This document shows, in pieces, positions 7,183-15,180 of a DNA stretch of 64,000 nt. A program made the position numbers and the translations under genes. A model generated the notes under the pieces. It did no database searches and was not told where the DNA came from. It saw only the letters and a program-made list of their open reading frames with translations. Position 1 is the first letter of the stretch. Each line of letters starts with the position of its first letter. Origin of the DNA: Cloacibacillus evryensis DSM 19522 (lineage in GTDB: Bacteria > Synergistota > Synergistia > Synergistales > Synergistaceae); NCBI RefSeq assembly GCF_000585335.1, contig NZ_KK073872.1, positions 2,409,283 to 2,473,282 of the forward strand, written 5' to 3'.

Positions 7183-7833
7183 TCAATCGGCCAGCGTCAG
7201 GAACCCCTCGCGTATCGCGTATTTCGTGAGCTCGGCCATGCTTTCGCAGCCAAGCTTGTCCATGATGCGGCGGCGGTGGGTATCTACGGTGTTTTTGCTT
7301 ATGAAGAGCGCGTCTGCGACCTGTTTGCTGTTGCGTCCCTTGACGAGGAGCTGCAGCACCTCTATCTCGCGTTCGGAGAGCGGGCTCGCGCAAACGACGT
7401 CTTCGTTGCGGAGCAGCCGCAGGTAATCGCCGACAAGCACGGTACATACCTTCGGCGAGAGGTATATCTCTTTCCTGCTCACGGAGCGGATCGCGTCAAG
7501 CATCAACTCCGGCGAGCTCTCTTTCAGGACATAACCGCGCGCGCCGGCCTTCAATGCTTCGGCGATGAAACGCCGGTCATTATGCATAGAAATGACAATG
7601 ACGGCGATATCGGGGAATTCAGAGCATATCTTCTCCGTCGCCTGTATGCCGTTCATATTGGGCATGGTGACGTCCATCAGGACGACCTCCGGCTTTAACT
7701 GCCGGACAGCGTTTACAGCCTCAAGCCCGTCGGAGGCGGAGCCTACGATCTCAATATCTTTTTCCCTGCTCAGCAGGCTCCTGAGCCCCTCGCGGAACAG
7801 CTCGTGGTCGTCGGCAATGAACAGTCTTATCAT
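7183..7833 (-). CDS. NarL/DegU-type response regulator
   Basis: 216 aa. N-terminal receiver domain with the acidic pocket (ADDHELF, residues 7-13), the phosphoacceptor Asp54 in VLMDVTMPNMNG, and the conserved Lys in VLKESSP. C-terminal LuxR-type helix-turn-helix at about residues 148-200 (LSEREIEVLQLLVKGRNSKQ, then KNTVDTHRRRIMDKLG). It overlaps the upstream histidine kinase by 4 bases (ATGA) and is clearly its partner. The stop codon abuts the tandem repeat block. Target genes are unknown. Confidence 0.95.
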   Translation of the reverse strand: MIRLFIADDHELFREGLRSLLSREKDIEIVGSASDGLEAVNAVRQLKPEVVLMDVTMPNMNGIQATEKICSEFPDIAVIVISMHNDRRFIAEALKAGARGYVLKESSPELMLDAIRSVSRKEIYLSPKVCTVLVGDYLRLLRNEDVVCASPLSEREIEVLQLLVKGRNSKQVADALFISKNTVDTHRRRIMDKLGCESMAELTKYAIREGFLTLAD

Positions 7834-8942
7834 CGGGTTTCATCCTCCTCCCGCAGATCGCTTATCTTGATTTTTAACGGCGCGAGCAAAGAGACCGTGG
7901 TTCCGTCCTTGTTGGAAACTATCCGCATGTCGCCCCCGATGTGCAGAAGCCGTTCCCTGATGCTGAATAGGCCGAGTCCGGCGGTATTGCCCCTGCCTGG
8001 GATGAAGTTTTTCCGCATACCGACGCCGTCGTCGTCGATCACGACCTGTATCTTGTTCGGTCCTCTGTTCACGTTGATGTGGACATGTTTGGCCTTCGCG
8101 TGTTTGATGACGTTGACCAGCAGCTCGCGCGACATCCTGTAAAGAATGACGCAGACGGCGTCATCCGCAGGGTGGTCTTTCTGCTGCCCCCGCGTCGAAA
8201 CGCTCCACATTATACCGCGCGGCGTCAGCAGCTTATCAGCGAGCGCCTCCAGAGCAGGCGTGATGCCCACTTCAAGCAGGATCGGCGGGCTCAGCTCGAA
8301 TATCAACTGACGGCTCTCCGCGATCATCCGCTCCGTAGCGTTTATGGCCCCATCCAGGATAGATTCGGCGGCATTCGGATTGTAGTAGTTTTCTTTAAGC
8401 TTGCGCAGGTCAAGCAGCAGCGAAAGCAGCGAGTGGCCTATGCTGTCATGCAGGTCGGTCGCGATCTCGCGTCTCGTAGTCTCTTCGCTGATCGTGAGTT
8501 TGGTCGCAAGCTCGCGCAGCATCGATTGGTATTTGATCAGTTTTTTCTGTTTGTCCTTAAGTTCCGCCTCTGATTTTTTGAGCTCCGTCCGGTCAAGAAA
8601 GATCGTCGCCGCAAGGTCTTCGGCCAAGGGAAATGCTATCGCTTCAAGGTATTTATCGGTGTAAACGCTCTCGCTCTCACAATGAACGGCGTGCTTCTCT
8701 TTCACGCAGCGCTCTATTATCTCGGACCAGCAGGGCTCGACGTCCGGCCATACTTCAAGAAAACTTTTCCCGATCACATCCTCGCGTCTTACTTTATTCA
8801 CCGTCTCGTAGGCGCTGTTCACATTGATATATATGATGGAGGAGGCTCCTCGCGTGCCGATATCGGGCTCGATCTTATAGAGAGCGATGGGATTGAATGT
8901 CTGTTCAAAGAAGAACTTTTCAAAAAAATTATTTTCTATCAT
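7830..8942 (-). CDS. PAS-containing histidine kinase (NarX/DegS class)
   Basis: 370-aa soluble sensor kinase with no membrane helix. Residues about 10-120 form a PAS domain (NSAYETVNKVRREDVIGKSF and a following core). A short coiled coil leads to the HisKA_3 dimerisation helix with phosphoacceptor His165 (REIATDLHDSIGHSLLSL). The HATPase domain shows NVIKHAKAKH, DDGVGM and GLGLFSIRERL. Cytoplasmic sensing of a redox or metabolic cue is likely. Transcribed with the response regulator directly downstream (ATGA overlap). Confidence 0.94.
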   Translation of the reverse strand: MIENNFFEKFFFEQTFNPIALYKIEPDIGTRGASSIIYINVNSAYETVNKVRREDVIGKSFLEVWPDVEPCWSEIIERCVKEKHAVHCESESVYTDKYLEAIAFPLAEDLAATIFLDRTELKKSEAELKDKQKKLIKYQSMLRELATKLTISEETTRREIATDLHDSIGHSLLSLLLDLRKLKENYYNPNAAESILDGAINATERMIAESRQLIFELSPPILLEVGITPALEALADKLLTPRGIMWSVSTRGQQKDHPADDAVCVILYRMSRELLVNVIKHAKAKHVHINVNRGPNKIQVVIDDDGVGMRKNFIPGRGNTAGLGLFSIRERLLHIGGDMRIVSNKDGTTVSLLAPLKIKISDLREEDETR

Positions 8943-9143: not shown

Positions 9144-9899
9144 TTATCTTCCCCAGGGGCAGGCGGCGAGGCAGAGGCCGCACGTCCCAAGGCCGAATAC
9201 CTTTTCCATGTCGTCCCAGTAATGAAAGCAGCTATCCGCGTCAAACCGTTCGGAGAGTTCTTCGGAGGAGCTGAAAGCGCGCCCGCGCAAGGCGCCTACC
9301 GGGCACGCATCCCGGCACTTGGTGCAGCTTCCGCACCGGTTGGGGATCTCGGCGTCCGGCGCGAAGGGAGCGTCGGTGAGTATCGTTCCGAGCCTCATAC
9401 GCGGCCCCACCTGCGGGTTGATGACGCTGCAGCTCTTTCCGACCCAGCCAAGCCCCGCTTTGGCGGCGGCGATCCTGTGGCTGAATACCCCGATAACACC
9501 CAGCTCCGTCTTGGGAAGCTCCGCGGGATCTCCGGCCTCTGCGACGATCCGGTGTAGCCCCTTTGTCCGCGCAGCAGGGCGGTAGTCCGAAGCTGGAACG
9601 GGGTAAGACCTGAATCCGGCACGCTGCAGCCTGTTGGCGGCCATGACGCTGATGCGGTCGATCTCGCGGTTTATCGTACTGTAGACGGTGATGTAGTTTC
9701 GCGTCGGGGCCTCAAGCTGTTCCTGCACGACCTCTTTGGGAAAGAATATCGCAAAAGAAACCGCCGTCGGGAAAGAAGAAAAATATTCACCGTAAACCTT
9801 TTTTATGTAACTGCTCTCGCCGCTCAGGCCGGCGACGGCACAGAGGTCGGCTCCCTCAGCCTTGACGAACGCGATGATCTCTTCTTTGACTATGCTCAC
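9144..9899 (-). CDS. QueG-like 4Fe-4S protein
   Basis: 251 aa from the GTG at 9899, which has GGAGG nine bases upstream; a GTG at 9908 is too close to that site. The C-terminal third carries two ferredoxin-type clusters: CGSCTKCRDACP and CGLCLAACPWGR. The N-terminal two thirds resemble the cobalamin-binding half of epoxyqueuosine reductase (KTELGVIGVFSHRIAAAKAG, GWVGKSCSVINP), but the QueG C-terminal HEAT repeats are absent. Such short QueG-like proteins also occur beside corrinoid and amino-acid reductase genes. As last gene of the grd operon, an electron-transfer or activation role is an inference. Confidence 0.8.
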   Translation of the reverse strand: MSIVKEEIIAFVKAEGADLCAVAGLSGESSYIKKVYGEYFSSFPTAVSFAIFFPKEVVQEQLEAPTRNYITVYSTINREIDRISVMAANRLQRAGFRSYPVPASDYRPAARTKGLHRIVAEAGDPAELPKTELGVIGVFSHRIAAAKAGLGWVGKSCSVINPQVGPRMRLGTILTDAPFAPDAEIPNRCGSCTKCRDACPVGALRGRAFSSSEELSERFDADSCFHYWDDMEKVFGLGTCGLCLAACPWGR

Positions 9900-9950
9900 G
9901 CGAATCACCCTCCAGGTAAAATAATTTTCGTGTCAAACGATATAGATATT

Positions 9951-10928
9951 TTACACGTCAGGCCTGACGATGTGCAGACTTCGATCGCAGAACCAATCGT
10001 AGACCGTATACTCCGGCTTAGGCTGCAGGCGCAGGCGTTCTATGCTCGTACCGACGATAAAGAGCGGATTGGCCGGTTCGATGAGGTTTTTGCCGTCATA
10101 GGAAAGGCGCTCGTAAACGGCGTCAAGCTCCCTCTCGTTGTCCGTCACGATGACGAGCATCGTCCAGTTTTCCTGTTGCTGGGAATCGATGTCGGCATAG
10201 CCGGGGATGTAGACCCGCCGCTGGCCGAGCAGAAATAGGTGCAGCTTGCCGATCGCGTCGTATATTTCGTCGTAATGCACGCCGTCTGCGCGCAGGAAGA
10301 AAAGGCGGTCAGCGTCTTTCATGTAGTAAATGTCGTCTGGTAGATGCGCCTCTTTGCGATACAGCGCAAAATCATAGCGGCTCCTCAAAATGAGGTTGAA
10401 GCGCACACTGTCGGCCTCCACGCCATTTATCGCCATCCATTTCAGCATTCCGGATTTACCGGGAGGCGTGATCCCCCTGGCGCCTACACCCCATTTCGGG
10501 AAAGCGCCGCAGAAGGAACGGACGAGCGGGGATTCCGGCCACATATACTTGACGCGGCCGTCCTCAATTTTCCAGAGCTCTTCCCTCGCCAGTTTGGGCA
10601 CAGAGGGCAGCGTCTCGTTGACCGAATATTCTTTTATTCCAAATTGACCGATAAAGGCCCTCTCCATCAGAAGGTAAAGACGGTTGTTCCAGAGGGCCTT
10701 TTCGGCGTCAAATTTACCGATCGGAAGGGCGGAAAGATAATGCAGCTTCGCGCACTCCTGACGTCTTTTTTCTCCCTCTTCCGTAAGGATATAGCCACCG
10801 CCGTCCTTAACCAGCAATCCATTTCCGGATAGCTCCGAGAGAGAAGATACATTCTCTCCGACAAGGACAAAGGTCTCCTCATCCCAGCAGGGGAATTTAT
10901 CTTCAAAAAGAAGCAGTGCGCGGTCCAT
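9951..10928 (-). CDS. Unknown protein in the grd operon
   Basis: 325 aa, not recognised. No signal peptide or membrane helix. The first 65 residues look like a winged-helix fold (LSELSGNGLLVKDGGGYILT, then EEGEKRR), which would make it a DNA- or RNA-binding protein. The rest is a mixed alpha/beta region with aromatic-rich segments (YIPGYADIDSQQQENW, YTVYDWFCDRSLHIV). It starts 4 bases after the BCCT stop with GGGGAG upstream, so it is co-transcribed with the betaine genes. It could be an operon-specific regulator. Confidence 0.65.
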   Translation of the reverse strand: MDRALLLFEDKFPCWDEETFVLVGENVSSLSELSGNGLLVKDGGGYILTEEGEKRRQECAKLHYLSALPIGKFDAEKALWNNRLYLLMERAFIGQFGIKEYSVNETLPSVPKLAREELWKIEDGRVKYMWPESPLVRSFCGAFPKWGVGARGITPPGKSGMLKWMAINGVEADSVRFNLILRSRYDFALYRKEAHLPDDIYYMKDADRLFFLRADGVHYDEIYDAIGKLHLFLLGQRRVYIPGYADIDSQQQENWTMLVIVTDNERELDAVYERLSYDGKNLIEPANPLFIVGTSIERLRLQPKPEYTVYDWFCDRSLHIVRPDV

Positions 10929-10932
10929 AATA

Positions 10933-12456
10933 TTATCTCTCCCCTTTTTCCTCTTTCGTAAGCGCCTTCCAGAAGGACGCGCAGGCGCAGATCATTATCA
11001 GCGAGAATGGCATCGCCGCCGCCAGAGAAACTGTCTGCAGGTTCTGCAGGCCTCCGGTAAGAAGGAGCACTACCGCGAGCGCCGCCATCAGCACGCCCCA
11101 GACCAACATTTTGCTCTTGGGCGGATTGAGGTCGCCGTGCGTCGAAAGCATCGCCAGCACGAAGGTGCCGGAGTTGGCGGAGGTGACGAAGAATGTTACG
11201 ATCAGCACAAGCATCACGACCGACATTATCTGGCCGAGAGGGTAATGGCTGTACATCTCAAATATCCCGACCGAAACATCTTTTAGAACCTCGACGGATA
11301 CGTTTATCTTCTGAACCAGCTCAAGATGCAGCGCCGACGTGCCGAAGATCGCAAACCAGGTGAAGCTGCCCAGAGCCGGCACGATGAGCACGCCGCTGAC
11401 AAATTCCCTTACCGTGCGCCCGCGTGATATTCTGGCCACGAACGAGCCGACAAAGGGCGCCCATGATATCCACCAGGCCCAGTAGTAGAGCGTCCAGCCG
11501 CTGAGGAATGATTCATAATCCCCGCCGTAAGGCGCCAGCGTGAAACTCTCCTTCACCAGGCCGCTGAGGTAATCGCCGACCCCGGTCATCAGTGAATTGA
11601 CGATGGGGAGCGTCGGGCCCACCAAAAATAGCGCCAACATCAGCAGCAGGCAGACCCACAGGTTGAAATCCGCCACCACCTTGATGCCCTTTTCTATGCC
11701 AAGCGCCGCCGATCCGGTGTACAGGACTGCGAGTATCGCGATTATCGCTATTTGGATAAACATGCTCTTCGGAATGCCGAAAATCGCGTTAAGGCCGCTG
11801 TTGAGCTGCAGGGTGCCAAGCCCCAGCGACGTGGTGATGCCGGCAAGCGTCGCGAAGATGGCCAGGATGTCGACCGTCTTGCCAAATGCGCCGCGGACCT
11901 TCTCCTCACCTACCAGAGGGATGAAGATCGAGCTGATGAGCCCGGGAGAATTGTGGCGGAACTGGTAGTAGGCAAGCGGCATGGCGATGACGGCATATCC
12001 GGCCCAGGGGTGGAGCCCCCAGTGGAAGAAGGATATCTGTATCGCGTCGCGCGCCGCTTGTACCGAGCCGGCCTCCGCTCCAAATGGCAGCGATCCAAAA
12101 TGAAAAAGCGGCTCGGCTGCTCCGTAGAATACCAGGCCGACTCCCATTCCGGCAGAGAATAGCATGGCGAACCATGACATATTGCTGTATTCGGGACGCG
12201 AGTCGTCCGGGCCGAGGCGTACATTGCCGAAACGGCTCAGCGCCACGGCGATGCAGAATATTACAAATAGATTCATAGTCAGCATGTAGCCCCATCCGTA
12301 ATAACTTGTGAGGCCGCCGTTCAGAATCTTTGCGAAAGCACCGAAGCTCTGCGGGGAGACGAGCCCCCAGAACACCAGCGCAAAGGTTATGGCGATAGAG
12401 ATTATATAAACCATATTTTTTTTAGAGGCAGTGCCGTTATCTGTTTTTTCTGACAT
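10933..12456 (-). CDS. BCCT-family betaine/choline/carnitine transporter
   Basis: 507 aa from the ATG at 12456 (AAAGGAG upstream); the longer frame from 12489 lacks a ribosome site. Twelve membrane helices. The family signature YYWAWWISWAPFVGSFVARI with GRTVREFV lies near residues 325-365 and includes the tryptophans that form the quaternary-amine pocket. GMGVGLVFYGAAEPLFHF matches the first conserved BCCT block. Directly downstream of grdIH, it most likely imports glycine betaine for reduction; osmoprotection is the alternative. Its C-terminal tail is short, without the long osmosensing tail of BetP. Confidence 0.93.
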   Translation of the reverse strand: MSEKTDNGTASKKNMVYIISIAITFALVFWGLVSPQSFGAFAKILNGGLTSYYGWGYMLTMNLFVIFCIAVALSRFGNVRLGPDDSRPEYSNMSWFAMLFSAGMGVGLVFYGAAEPLFHFGSLPFGAEAGSVQAARDAIQISFFHWGLHPWAGYAVIAMPLAYYQFRHNSPGLISSIFIPLVGEEKVRGAFGKTVDILAIFATLAGITTSLGLGTLQLNSGLNAIFGIPKSMFIQIAIIAILAVLYTGSAALGIEKGIKVVADFNLWVCLLLMLALFLVGPTLPIVNSLMTGVGDYLSGLVKESFTLAPYGGDYESFLSGWTLYYWAWWISWAPFVGSFVARISRGRTVREFVSGVLIVPALGSFTWFAIFGTSALHLELVQKINVSVEVLKDVSVGIFEMYSHYPLGQIMSVVMLVLIVTFFVTSANSGTFVLAMLSTHGDLNPPKSKMLVWGVLMAALAVVLLLTGGLQNLQTVSLAAAMPFSLIMICACASFWKALTKEEKGER

Positions 12457-12511
12457 TGCTAGATTGCTCCTTTGCAGCCAGGTAGTCAAAACTATGAGAC
12501 GAACTACAACT

Positions 12512-12533
12512 GCGGGGCGTTGTAACGCCCCGC
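12512..12533. other. Intercistronic hairpin between grdH and the BCCT gene
   Basis: GCGGGGCG and CGCCCCGC pair around TTGTAA, 15 bases past the grdH stop. There is no T run on the reverse strand, so it is probably an mRNA-stabilising or partial-attenuation hairpin rather than a full terminator. Confidence 0.5.
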
Positions 12534-12548
12534 TCTAAACGCAAATAG

Positions 12549-13859
12549 CTAAATGCTTACTTTGAATACCTTGGGTTCATTGATATCTTCCGCGAGCGCG
12601 TCAAGCGCGACGCCGACTCTGTGGTAACGGAGCGCCCACTCTTCTTCTTTCGAGAGCGTGGGATCGCCGAGAGGATAGGGAACGGATGTCGTGGGAACTA
12701 TTCTGTTTGAGCCGACCGTCTTCGCGACGTCGATGAGGTTCGCCATGACGACGACGGGGAATCCTGCGCGTTCAATTTCTTTGGCCATCGTTGCACCGCA
12801 ACGAGTACAGGTTCCTCAGGTGGCGGTGAGGATCACGGCGTCAACTCCGGCCTGTTTCAGCTCGGCGGCGATCTCCTTGCCGAACTTTGCCGCGTAGTTC
12901 TGCGTCGTCCCCGTGCCTACGGTCACATAGTAGTAGTCGTAAAGCTTCGCGAATTTGCCCTCTTTCTCGTAGGCGCGCATAGCGTCGAGGGGAATGCCGC
13001 GGTCAGGAACCGCACACATGGCTTCGGGGTCAAATCCGGCGTGGATCGTCTTAAACTCTCCGGCGGGAAGGCGGTCCATACCGGCGATGTTGTATTTGCC
13101 CCACTTCTGGGCGGAGGCGCTCTGTATCCTGTCTGGGTTATCCGAGGGAACGACGCCGCTCGAAGATACCAGCGCTATCGTGCACTGCGACAGATCCTTC
13201 ACCGCCGCTGCCGGCGGTATCCTGTCGGTCTTCGGGATCACGAGCTCTGTCTGGAATGGTTTGCCGTTGAGTTTCTTGACAAGCATGTCGATGACGCGGT
13301 CGGCGGCCATCACTTCGCCTGGCGCGGGGATCTCGCTGCGGATGCCGCGTGGGAAATAGCCTTCATCCGCGGCGGGGAGAAGCTTCTCGCCCTTCGCGAT
13401 CTTCTCGGCATACTTCGCCATCAGCGTGAGGTCGTCCTTCATAAATGTCGCCTTGCGTCCGCCCTTGAAGATGATGCAGGAACTTTTGTACTCCTCAACT
13501 CCGGGGTTTTCCTCGTTCATCGATGTGATGACGGGCACGCCGTAACGCTCGGCGACGGCCTTGCAGAGAAGTCCGCAGCCTACTCCGTAACGTCCGGCCA
13601 TAAAGGCTGGACCGGCGAAGAAAATATCGAACTGCTTCGTGTCGAGCCAGGCGAATATTTCCGCGAGCGCTTCGTCCGTGTGGTTGGTGATATAGTTGTC
13701 GCCGCAGACAAAGGTATTTGTGACTTCCACATCCGGCATCATCTGATTGAGCATCAGCGAGCAGCCGATAAGTCCGTCATGGAAGATCGGCTTACTGTCA
13801 GCCGCGTCTTCGCCGCCCACCTGGCCGAAGAATTGGTTTATATAATGTATGGCTTTCAT
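12549..13859 (-). CDS. grdH: Betaine/glycine reductase selenoprotein B, in-frame UGA = Sec348
   Basis: One 436-aa gene interrupted by TGA at 12818-12816. Reading through gives ILTAT-U-GTCTRCGAT-MAKEIERAG, the UxxC redox motif of the substrate-specific selenoprotein B of glycine/sarcosine/betaine reductase (GrdB/GrdF/GrdH). Both sides of the TGA match one family: the N-terminal part KAIHYINQFFGQVGGEDAAD and the C-terminal part GSNRIVPTTSVPYPLGDP. A hairpin immediately after the UGA fits a bacterial SECIS. It starts 13 bases after grdI. Betaine as substrate is inferred from the adjacent BCCT transporter; GrdB (glycine) or GrdF (sarcosine) cannot be excluded. Confidence 0.93.
12789..12818 (-). 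promoter_or_regulatory. SECIS-like hairpin after the Sec UGA
   Basis: Twelve bases after the in-frame TGA (12818-12816) the mRNA can form CGTTGC-GGU-GCAACG, a 6-bp stem with a small loop. Position and size fit the coding-region selenocysteine insertion element that bacterial SelB needs. Confidence 0.7.
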
Positions 13860-13872
13860 CTGTTTCGCCCCC

Positions 13873-15180
13873 TTAGAAATCGGCGCAGCTTCTGCGCGAA
13901 TAGCCGCTGATGTGGTTTGCGCAGAACATGCCGTTGTTTTCCATTACACAGCTGCCGTCTGGATTGATGCATCCTTCCCAGCCGCCGGAATTGCCGTCGC
14001 GGGCAAGAGCTTCAAGTTCGCCGATGACCTCCATCGCCGGCATTTCGTAGAACTGCGACACGTTGCCGGTGGTCACCAAAGCGTCGGTGGCGGGGTTCAT
14101 CGAAACGAGCGGCTGAGAAGCGCCGTCTCTCCCGGTCGCCTCGTCCGACAGCCCTATCGTCTTGATGCCAAGCCTCTCAAGCTCGACGAGCATCGCCGTG
14201 TAGTCGACGTCGGGGTTGCCGTACCCCTCTTCGGCGACGACGGCGCCCTTCGCGCCGACCGCCGCCGCGATCTGGCCCGCGATCTGTACGCAGCGCGCCT
14301 TCTCTTCCATCTTCGGGTTGAGGGTCGAAAGGATCACGCCCAGGAAGTTGATCGTCTTTCCATGCTGGGCATAGAGGCGCTTTATCATCGGGTTGGTCGA
14401 AAATTCATAGGTGGATATTTTTGAGGAGCTGGGCATGAAGCTGCCGGAGACGAGGCATCCGTCAAGGAACTCGTTGGGATGCATGAAGGTCGGCAGCATC
14501 CTGTTGCCGTCCCATCCGTAGACGAGGGTGTTGTAGCCAAGAGCCTCCATCTGCGTCTGCGGCTGAAGGACATAGACTACGCCGGGAAGGGCCGCCGTCT
14601 TTTCGTCGCGTTCGTTGAGAGCCGGCAGGTCATAGACGTCGATCTCCTCGGGCTCCATATCGCGGACGCATTCGGCGATATGTTCAGCGAGGCGCAGGCC
14701 GGCCCAGCGGATCGCGTGGTTCTTCTTCTGCTGTTCCCTCTGCTCGTCAAGTTCGCTGGTGTCGGCGACGAGAACGAGGTTCGGCATATCTCCCCATATC
14801 GTGTAGTGCTGATAAGGGCCGCCCATGTCGATCAGTCCGTCCTGAAAACCGCCCCAATGCTTTCCTACGGAAAGGAGCGTCACTCCGTCAAGGACGTGGG
14901 TCCTCCCCATGCCGGCCTGACCCAGCGGGCTCGTCACGCCGGGATATGCGCCCTCGCCGCCGTTGACCTTGCATCTGAATTCCACCGAGTCTTTCACCGG
15001 GCAAAGTCTCACCATATCGCCGGGATGTACGACCTTAAGGTCGGCCTCGGTGATATATTTGTCTTCGCACACGACCTTGAGCGCCTCTTCCTTATTAACT
15101 GTGAGGACGCCGCCGCAATAGGCCGTCTTATCGCCAAAGACGATGTCTTTGACTTTGAACTTGCCAATTTCCAGTCTCAT
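13873..15180 (-). CDS. grdI: Betaine/glycine reductase proprotein, pyruvoyl-type subunit B component
   Basis: 435 aa from the ATG at 15180 (AGGAGG upstream; the longer frame to 15252 is not needed). It matches the GrdE/GrdG/GrdI proprotein of protein B: MRLEIGKFKVKDIVFGDKTA, GVTSPLGQAGMGRTHVLDGV, HPNEFLDGCLVSGSFMPS, TNPMIKRLYAQHGKTINFLG. The family is cleaved at an internal Cys that becomes a pyruvoyl group binding the substrate amine; Cys242 in LDGCLVSG is the best candidate, though Gly rather than Asn precedes it. First gene of the operon. Proteins A and C of the complex must be encoded elsewhere. Confidence 0.9.
   Translation of the reverse strand: MRLEIGKFKVKDIVFGDKTAYCGGVLTVNKEEALKVVCEDKYITEADLKVVHPGDMVRLCPVKDSVEFRCKVNGGEGAYPGVTSPLGQAGMGRTHVLDGVTLLSVGKHWGGFQDGLIDMGGPYQHYTIWGDMPNLVLVADTSELDEQREQQKKNHAIRWAGLRLAEHIAECVRDMEPEEIDVYDLPALNERDEKTAALPGVVYVLQPQTQMEALGYNTLVYGWDGNRMLPTFMHPNEFLDGCLVSGSFMPSSSKISTYEFSTNPMIKRLYAQHGKTINFLGVILSTLNPKMEEKARCVQIAGQIAAAVGAKGAVVAEEGYGNPDVDYTAMLVELERLGIKTIGLSDEATGRDGASQPLVSMNPATDALVTTGNVSQFYEMPAMEVIGELEALARDGNSGGWEGCINPDGSCVMENNGMFCANHISGYSRRSCADF

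Follow-up and report, generated by a model that had tools for sequence, protein, structure and literature searches.

The betaine reductase GrdHI of Eubacterium (Peptoclostridium) acidaminophilum combines a GrdH-type selenocysteine subunit with a partner that is without the pyruvoyl cysteine, and it works with the common proteins GrdA and GrdC/D. The locus described here lies in a 64,000-nt stretch of the Cloacibacillus evryensis DSM 19522 genome (the window) and shares the selenocysteine-containing GrdH, the pyruvoyl-less partner and the use of shared GrdA and GrdC/D proteins; it differs in that its GrdH scores below the strict NCBIfam threshold and in that a two-component system and a 325-aa protein are encoded nearby. 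The glycine (GrdB/GrdE) and sarcosine (GrdF/GrdG) systems have in common with the window the protein family, the UGTC motif, the SECIS element and the shared GrdA and GrdC/D; however, the GrdE and GrdG partners keep a GNCVxACDK motif that is cleaved to give the pyruvoyl subunit, which GrdI of the window does not have. Fluoroacetate reductase FarBE likewise pairs a GrdB-family selenocysteine protein with a partner that does not have the pyruvoyl cysteine, but the FarB-like copy of C. evryensis reads UGTSSRGG with no later cysteines, and FarE is a separate NCBIfam family encoded elsewhere in the genome.

Clusters of this kind have been described before. For Cloacibacillus porcorum MFA1, the available part of one report lists several GrdB selenoproteins with SECIS elements, the selenocysteine machinery and one cluster located by the betaine transporter gene opuD (PMC10838667). 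C. evryensis resembles that strain in its GrdB selenoproteins with SECIS, its cluster with a betaine transporter, its selenocysteine machinery and a GrdI that is no proprotein, and differs in having seven TGA-containing GrdB genes compared with the eight given in that part of the report. Abyssisolibacter is likewise described as having grdIH clustered with a betaine transporter (PMC10536192, in the part available), and GrdH is stated to make trimethylamine from betaine (PMC6964529, in the part available). The arrangement of grdIH with a betaine carrier is already known, with such a Cloacibacillus cluster described in 2023 (PMC10838667, in the part available), and the locus is otherwise ordinary, known biology. 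The words Synergist-, Cloacibacillus and Pyramidobacter were absent from the main text of the grdH papers compared; judged by their genes, the Synergistota would join the bacteria able to turn betaine into trimethylamine.

The grdIH pair is of the betaine reductase type

The grdI- and grdH-type genes are neighbors on the minus strand (Table 1), are separated by 13 nt, and look like a single operon. The grdI product matched the Pfam family Gly_reductase (PF09338, E 6.5e-171) and the grdH product matched GRDB (E 2.6e-150). Among the NCBIfam models, the grdH product scored far best with betaine_GrdH (NF040795; 684.7 bits), followed by GrdF (505.6 bits) and GrdB (447.6 bits). This bears out the betaine-reductase-type selenoprotein proposed in an earlier reading of the DNA (here, the sequence-only reading), though the score is under the at least 775 bits required by the naming rule of NF040795, which is a strict 'exception' model; we therefore name the protein betaine-reductase-type and treat its substrate as inferred. 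A search of solved structures with GrdH and GrdI as queries gave zero matches, and the predicted structure of GrdH (mean pLDDT 83.8, pTM 0.56) was uninformative, with its best PDB matches at a TM of about 0.2.

Table 1. Features of the grdIH locus (positions in the window)
Feature	Position	Strand	Remarks
grdI-type gene	13873-15180	-	435 aa; partner subunit of substrate-specific protein B; RBS AGGAGG
grdH-type gene	12549-13859	-	436 aa if TGA is read as Sec; selenoprotein subunit of protein B
In-frame TGA, Sec348	12816-12818	-	translated with TGA=U; UGTC motif, context TATUGTCTRCG
SECIS element (Rfam SECIS_4)	12778-12815	-	60.9 bits; gathering score 38
GC-rich hairpin	12512-12533	-	between grdH and carrier gene; no T-run
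BCCT carrier gene	10933-12456	-	ATG at 12456 with AAGGAG upstream; stop at 10933
325-aa protein, no known family	9951-10928	-	4 nt from carrier gene; recurs beside grd genes
4Fe-4S protein, QueG-like C-terminal half	9144-9908	-	Pfam Fer4_16; loosely linked
Histidine kinase	7830-8942	-	HisKA_3 and HATPase_c
LuxR-type response regulator	7183-7833	-	Response_reg and GerE

We consider it highly probable that GrdHI is protein B of a betaine reductase that is fed by the neighboring BCCT carrier and passes its product to GrdA and GrdC/GrdD. The two genes are an ordinary intact pair, whose enzyme probably serves to convert betaine to trimethylamine for energy. By analogy with the glycine reductase mechanism as generally known, and with sequence as its support at this locus, the route would run as follows: (i) the carrier would import glycine betaine, probably with Na+; (ii) GrdHI would bind betaine, and Sec348 would attack the carbon beside the quaternary nitrogen; (iii) trimethylamine would be released, leaving a carboxymethyl-selenoether; (iv) the carboxymethyl group would be handed to GrdA, a shared selenoprotein present as a single copy, and on to GrdC/GrdD; and (v) GrdC/GrdD would yield acetyl phosphate and hence ATP, with electrons supplied by thioredoxin.

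The GrdI partner is without the pyruvoyl cysteine

Where GrdE has GNCVxACDK, GrdI of the window has GSFMPSSSK(I), and the pyruvoyl cysteine is absent. The GrdE-type paralogs from the glycine-like and sarcosine-like clusters of the same genome both read GNCVSACDKN. In C. difficile, GrdE forms its pyruvoyl group from the cysteine at the N-terminus of peptide 242-266 (PMC9908766, in the part available), while FarE, like GrdI, is described as being without the two conserved cysteines and as not a proprotein (PMC10838667, in the part available). The sequence-only reading had called GrdI a partner proprotein; the partner role stands, and the proprotein role is withdrawn because the pyruvoyl cysteine is missing and the available part of PMC10838667 denies it. 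The quaternary nitrogen of betaine is a good leaving group and forms no Schiff base, which may explain why GrdI has no pyruvoyl cysteine; this reasoning draws on the available discussion in PMC10838667 and on general chemistry.

The motif was compared across related loci. Among 30 of these, the partner was of the GSFMP type in 21 (partial in L044) and carried GNCVAACDK in nine; two further loci (L047 and L053), for which a partner gene was not within reach, stand outside this count. Five extra copies located upstream (in L052, L054, L056, L057 and L061) were all of the GNCV type. A BCCT gene followed grdH in all 19 GSFMP-type loci with enough flanking sequence (L041 and L064 are truncated) and in none of the nine GNCV-type loci within the fetched flank, with the two marks measured independently of one another in loci that are not independent lineages, being mostly from Synergistota plus one Clostridia group. 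The partner motif (GSFMP versus GNCVxAC) provides a simple marker of betaine-type versus glycine/sarcosine-type clusters.

The adjacent BCCT carrier and its linkage to grdIH

The BCCT carrier gene that the sequence-only reading noted after grdH lies 92 nt beyond it, or 59 nt if translation starts at the TTG at 12489. Scanned from this TTG, the product matched Pfam BCCT (E 6.7e-186) and the NCBIfam family betaine_BCCT (NF047988) at 633.4 bits, which misses the naming cut-off of 650. The protein is BetP-like, with a WAWWISW aromatic box and a GMGxG glycine stretch; it reads YYWAWWISWAPFVG where BetP has YYWAWWISWSPFVG, and GMGVG where BetP has GMGIG. These features suggest that it probably mediates Na+-coupled betaine uptake. 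Its closest solved relative is a trimethylamine transporter (375 bits), slightly ahead of BetP (360 bits), so the substrate is not fixed by sequence. In the genomes of relatives, a BCCT gene followed grdIH in 17 of 19 loci, a set that partly overlaps the first set of loci; the exceptions were L124, where the gene of the 325-aa protein lies right after grdIH and no BCCT gene is present there, and L135, which has no BCCT gene.

The hairpin in the grdH-BCCT gap of the window (9 pairs, 8 of them G-C) had a folding energy of -19.8 kcal/mol (z -2.9). We compared 22 grdH-BCCT gaps, that of the window included, using only 15 shuffles per gap, and found a strong hairpin in 11 of the 11 Synergistota gaps (-17 to -28 kcal/mol, each more than 2 sd beyond the shuffle mean). 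At least four T residues directly followed the hairpin in 8 of the 10 other Synergistota gaps, as in an intrinsic terminator; the gap of the window has none such. Two gaps from Flavonifractor also had strong hairpins, while the nine Clostridia-type gaps were just 25-32 nt long with no hairpin. Scans for promoters (5 found, 4.9 expected) and terminator-like elements (10 found, 9.2 expected) gave counts close to expectation and by themselves are no proof; the case for the hairpin is thus made by the fold statistics and the comparison of gaps. The placement of the hairpin suggests that the carrier is expressed separately from grdIH, and in Synergistota this separation probably comes about through partial termination or a promoter of the carrier's own; in the nine Clostridia-type loci, it looks to be co-transcribed with grdIH. 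An operon that includes the transporter, as claimed by the sequence-only reading, is therefore upheld as to adjacency and only in part as to a single transcription unit, given a strong hairpin that is terminator-like in most Synergistota relatives.

These hairpins, together with the two further BCCT genes of the genome (three with the window copy), would also fit a BCCT protein that acts as an osmoprotectant carrier, a neighbor of grdIH by history that stands outside the catabolic unit. We regard this as unlikely, since the adjacency of grdH and the BCCT gene holds in all 19 loci that have sufficient flank, which come from two phyla, and since the nine Clostridia-type gaps are so short and free of hairpins.

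Betaine as the probable substrate of GrdHI

From the family score, the partner motif and the transporter, we infer that betaine is the substrate of GrdHI. The partner FarE and that of an orphan GrdH-type pair at another locus (L071, see below) are also pyruvoyl-less, so absence of the cysteine is not peculiar to betaine enzymes. In line with this and with the trimethylamine transporter as top solved relative of the carrier, the substrate might be another compound that forms no Schiff base (e.g., dimethylglycine, a carnitine-type compound or a sulfonium) and is carried by the BCCT protein. The chance of this appears small, as the top score of the selenoprotein is to the betaine GrdH model, the best family of the carrier is a betaine family, and the same link of grdH with a BCCT gene recurs in Synergistota and Clostridia.

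It is very improbable that GrdHI is protein B of a sarcosine or glycine reductase with a pyruvoyl-type proprotein, even though the top NCBIfam match of the grdI product was sarcosine_GrdG (326 bits) and its matches included no GrdI model. That score is far under the GrdG cut-off of 780, the pyruvoyl cysteine is missing from the partner, the selenoprotein scores 179 bits higher with GrdH than with GrdF, and other pairs in the genome are a better fit for glycine or sarcosine. One paralog is of the glycine type, with 647.9 bits against a GrdB cut-off of 602.2, and a glycine riboswitch (L071:13832-13935, minus strand, 65.7 bits) precedes grdX and the glycine-type grdE/grdB; this separate pair with its riboswitch suggests that glycine is covered elsewhere in the genome.

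Selenocysteine insertion and the shared machinery

The SECIS_4 element begins at the base right after the in-frame TGA of grdH (E 5.3e-12 over the whole window), and the model alignment places the start of its apical stem (CGUUGC-GGU-GCAACG) 12 nt past the TGA. Thermodynamic folding of the 38-nt region was no better than shuffles (z -0.54), and a longer stretch around it folded into another structure by plain energy folding; support for the element thus comes from the covariance model and not from fold energy. A TGA was found at the aligned position in 21 of 21 other GrdH-type and 16 of 16 GrdB-type sequences, in an alignment drawn up without the GrdH sequences of L061 (split match) and L064 (cut off).

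The genome, searched as a single contig of 3,488,464 bases, encodes one copy of SelA (566.9 bits), one copy of SelB over the cut-off (386.1 bits), SelD (316.9 bits) and a single tRNA-Sec that exceeds the gathering score (76.2 bits), on which ARAGORN concurs. GrdA is present as a single TGA-containing copy adjoined by a thioredoxin-like gene, and GrdC (727.7 bits) and GrdD (555.5 bits), both above cut-off, are found together in locus L081. With these results, the sequence-only reading proved right on three counts: (i) the TGA encodes Sec in a UxxC motif (U348, UGTC); (ii) a hairpin is located 12 bases downstream; and (iii) SelA/B/C/D and GrdA/C/D are encoded elsewhere in the genome. Given the SECIS element after the TGA and the whole selenocysteine machinery, Sec348 is very likely made. 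A genuine stop that leaves grdH truncated or a pseudogene has only the stop codon itself in its favor and can be dismissed with near certainty, as the SECIS is present, the frame and TGA are kept in all 22 GrdH-type sequences including that of the window, and the genome has the full Sec machinery. As a separate observation, the selD gene has an in-frame TGA of its own (L077; G000:C1:1728349-1729275).

Downstream neighbors of the carrier

The 325-aa protein encoded next to the carrier gene had a weak winged-helix match at its N-terminus (Pfam HTH_45, E 0.017, below cut-off), which hints at a regulator; its predicted structure (mean pLDDT 60.2, from 4 sequences) gave no significant match. Its gene comes after that of the carrier in L038, L039 and L040 as well as in eight loci from the genomes of relatives (L088-L094 and L103), some of which are probably the same genomes counted twice. 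The family was present in 36 of 60 genomes searched, C. evryensis included. Counted over 41 of 53 rows (three from C. evryensis itself and nine weak fragments were dropped), copies in relatives were located within 6 kb of a GrdB-family gene in 11 cases and within 12 kb in 16, farther off on the same contig in nine, and on contigs without a GrdB-family gene in 16, where the GrdB positions used come from those genomes and contigs that had a counted copy. A paralog (54% identical) is encoded in C. evryensis at L081:11959-13110 (minus strand), adjoining grdC/grdD.

Beyond this gene, the 4Fe-4S protein scored 66.5 bits with NCBIfam QueG (cut-off 200), and its ortholog was found in four fetched loci (L039, L089, L092 and L093). 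The genes of the histidine kinase and response regulator were near grdIH in L038, L040, L042, L064 and the same-genus genome L088, and were directly upstream of grdI in L040, L042 and L064. It is possible that this kinase/LuxR-type pair serves as a betaine-responsive regulator.

Other protein B copies in the genome

Seven GrdB-family genes of the genome contain a TGA, and one further, shorter copy lacks it. On the GrdH model, the six TGA-containing paralogs other than the window copy scored 366-537 bits, compared with 684.7 bits for the latter. A second GrdH-type Sec protein and its partner (L071:7519-8814 and L071:8857-10155, minus strand) reached 536.7 bits on this model and had 8 of the 12 residues that separate GrdH from GrdB-type sequences; the partner of this orphan pair does not have the pyruvoyl cysteine, and DctM and NMT1_3 (TRAP-TAXI) transporter genes adjoin. 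This pair and the recurrent 325-aa protein could be new.

We tentatively suggest, as a broader scheme that may well prove wrong, that protein B divides into two branches, one with a pyruvoyl group (for glycine, sarcosine and proline-like substrates) and one without it, which acts on leaving groups unable to form a Schiff base and has three members in this genome (GrdHI, FarBE and the orphan GrdH-type pair by TRAP-TAXI genes). In this scheme, the Synergistota betaine unit would also be its own regulated module, including a soluble histidine kinase with its response regulator and the winged-helix-like protein repeatedly found next to grd genes.

Two additional loci were noted. A full-length GrdE/GrdB-type pair with Sec (L073:8453-11056) is flanked by two proline racemase genes and a sodium:solute symporter gene, and its partner retains a TVCSDK motif; this may be a proline-type reductase that uses GrdB/GrdE components in place of PrdA/PrdB. 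The second locus (L074:7230-11430) encodes FarE (912.4 bits, cut-off 675) and the FarB-like Sec protein without later cysteines, as well as a shorter GrdB-like copy in which Cys replaces Sec. In a same-genus relative, nine GrdB-family matches were detected, eight of them with TGA.
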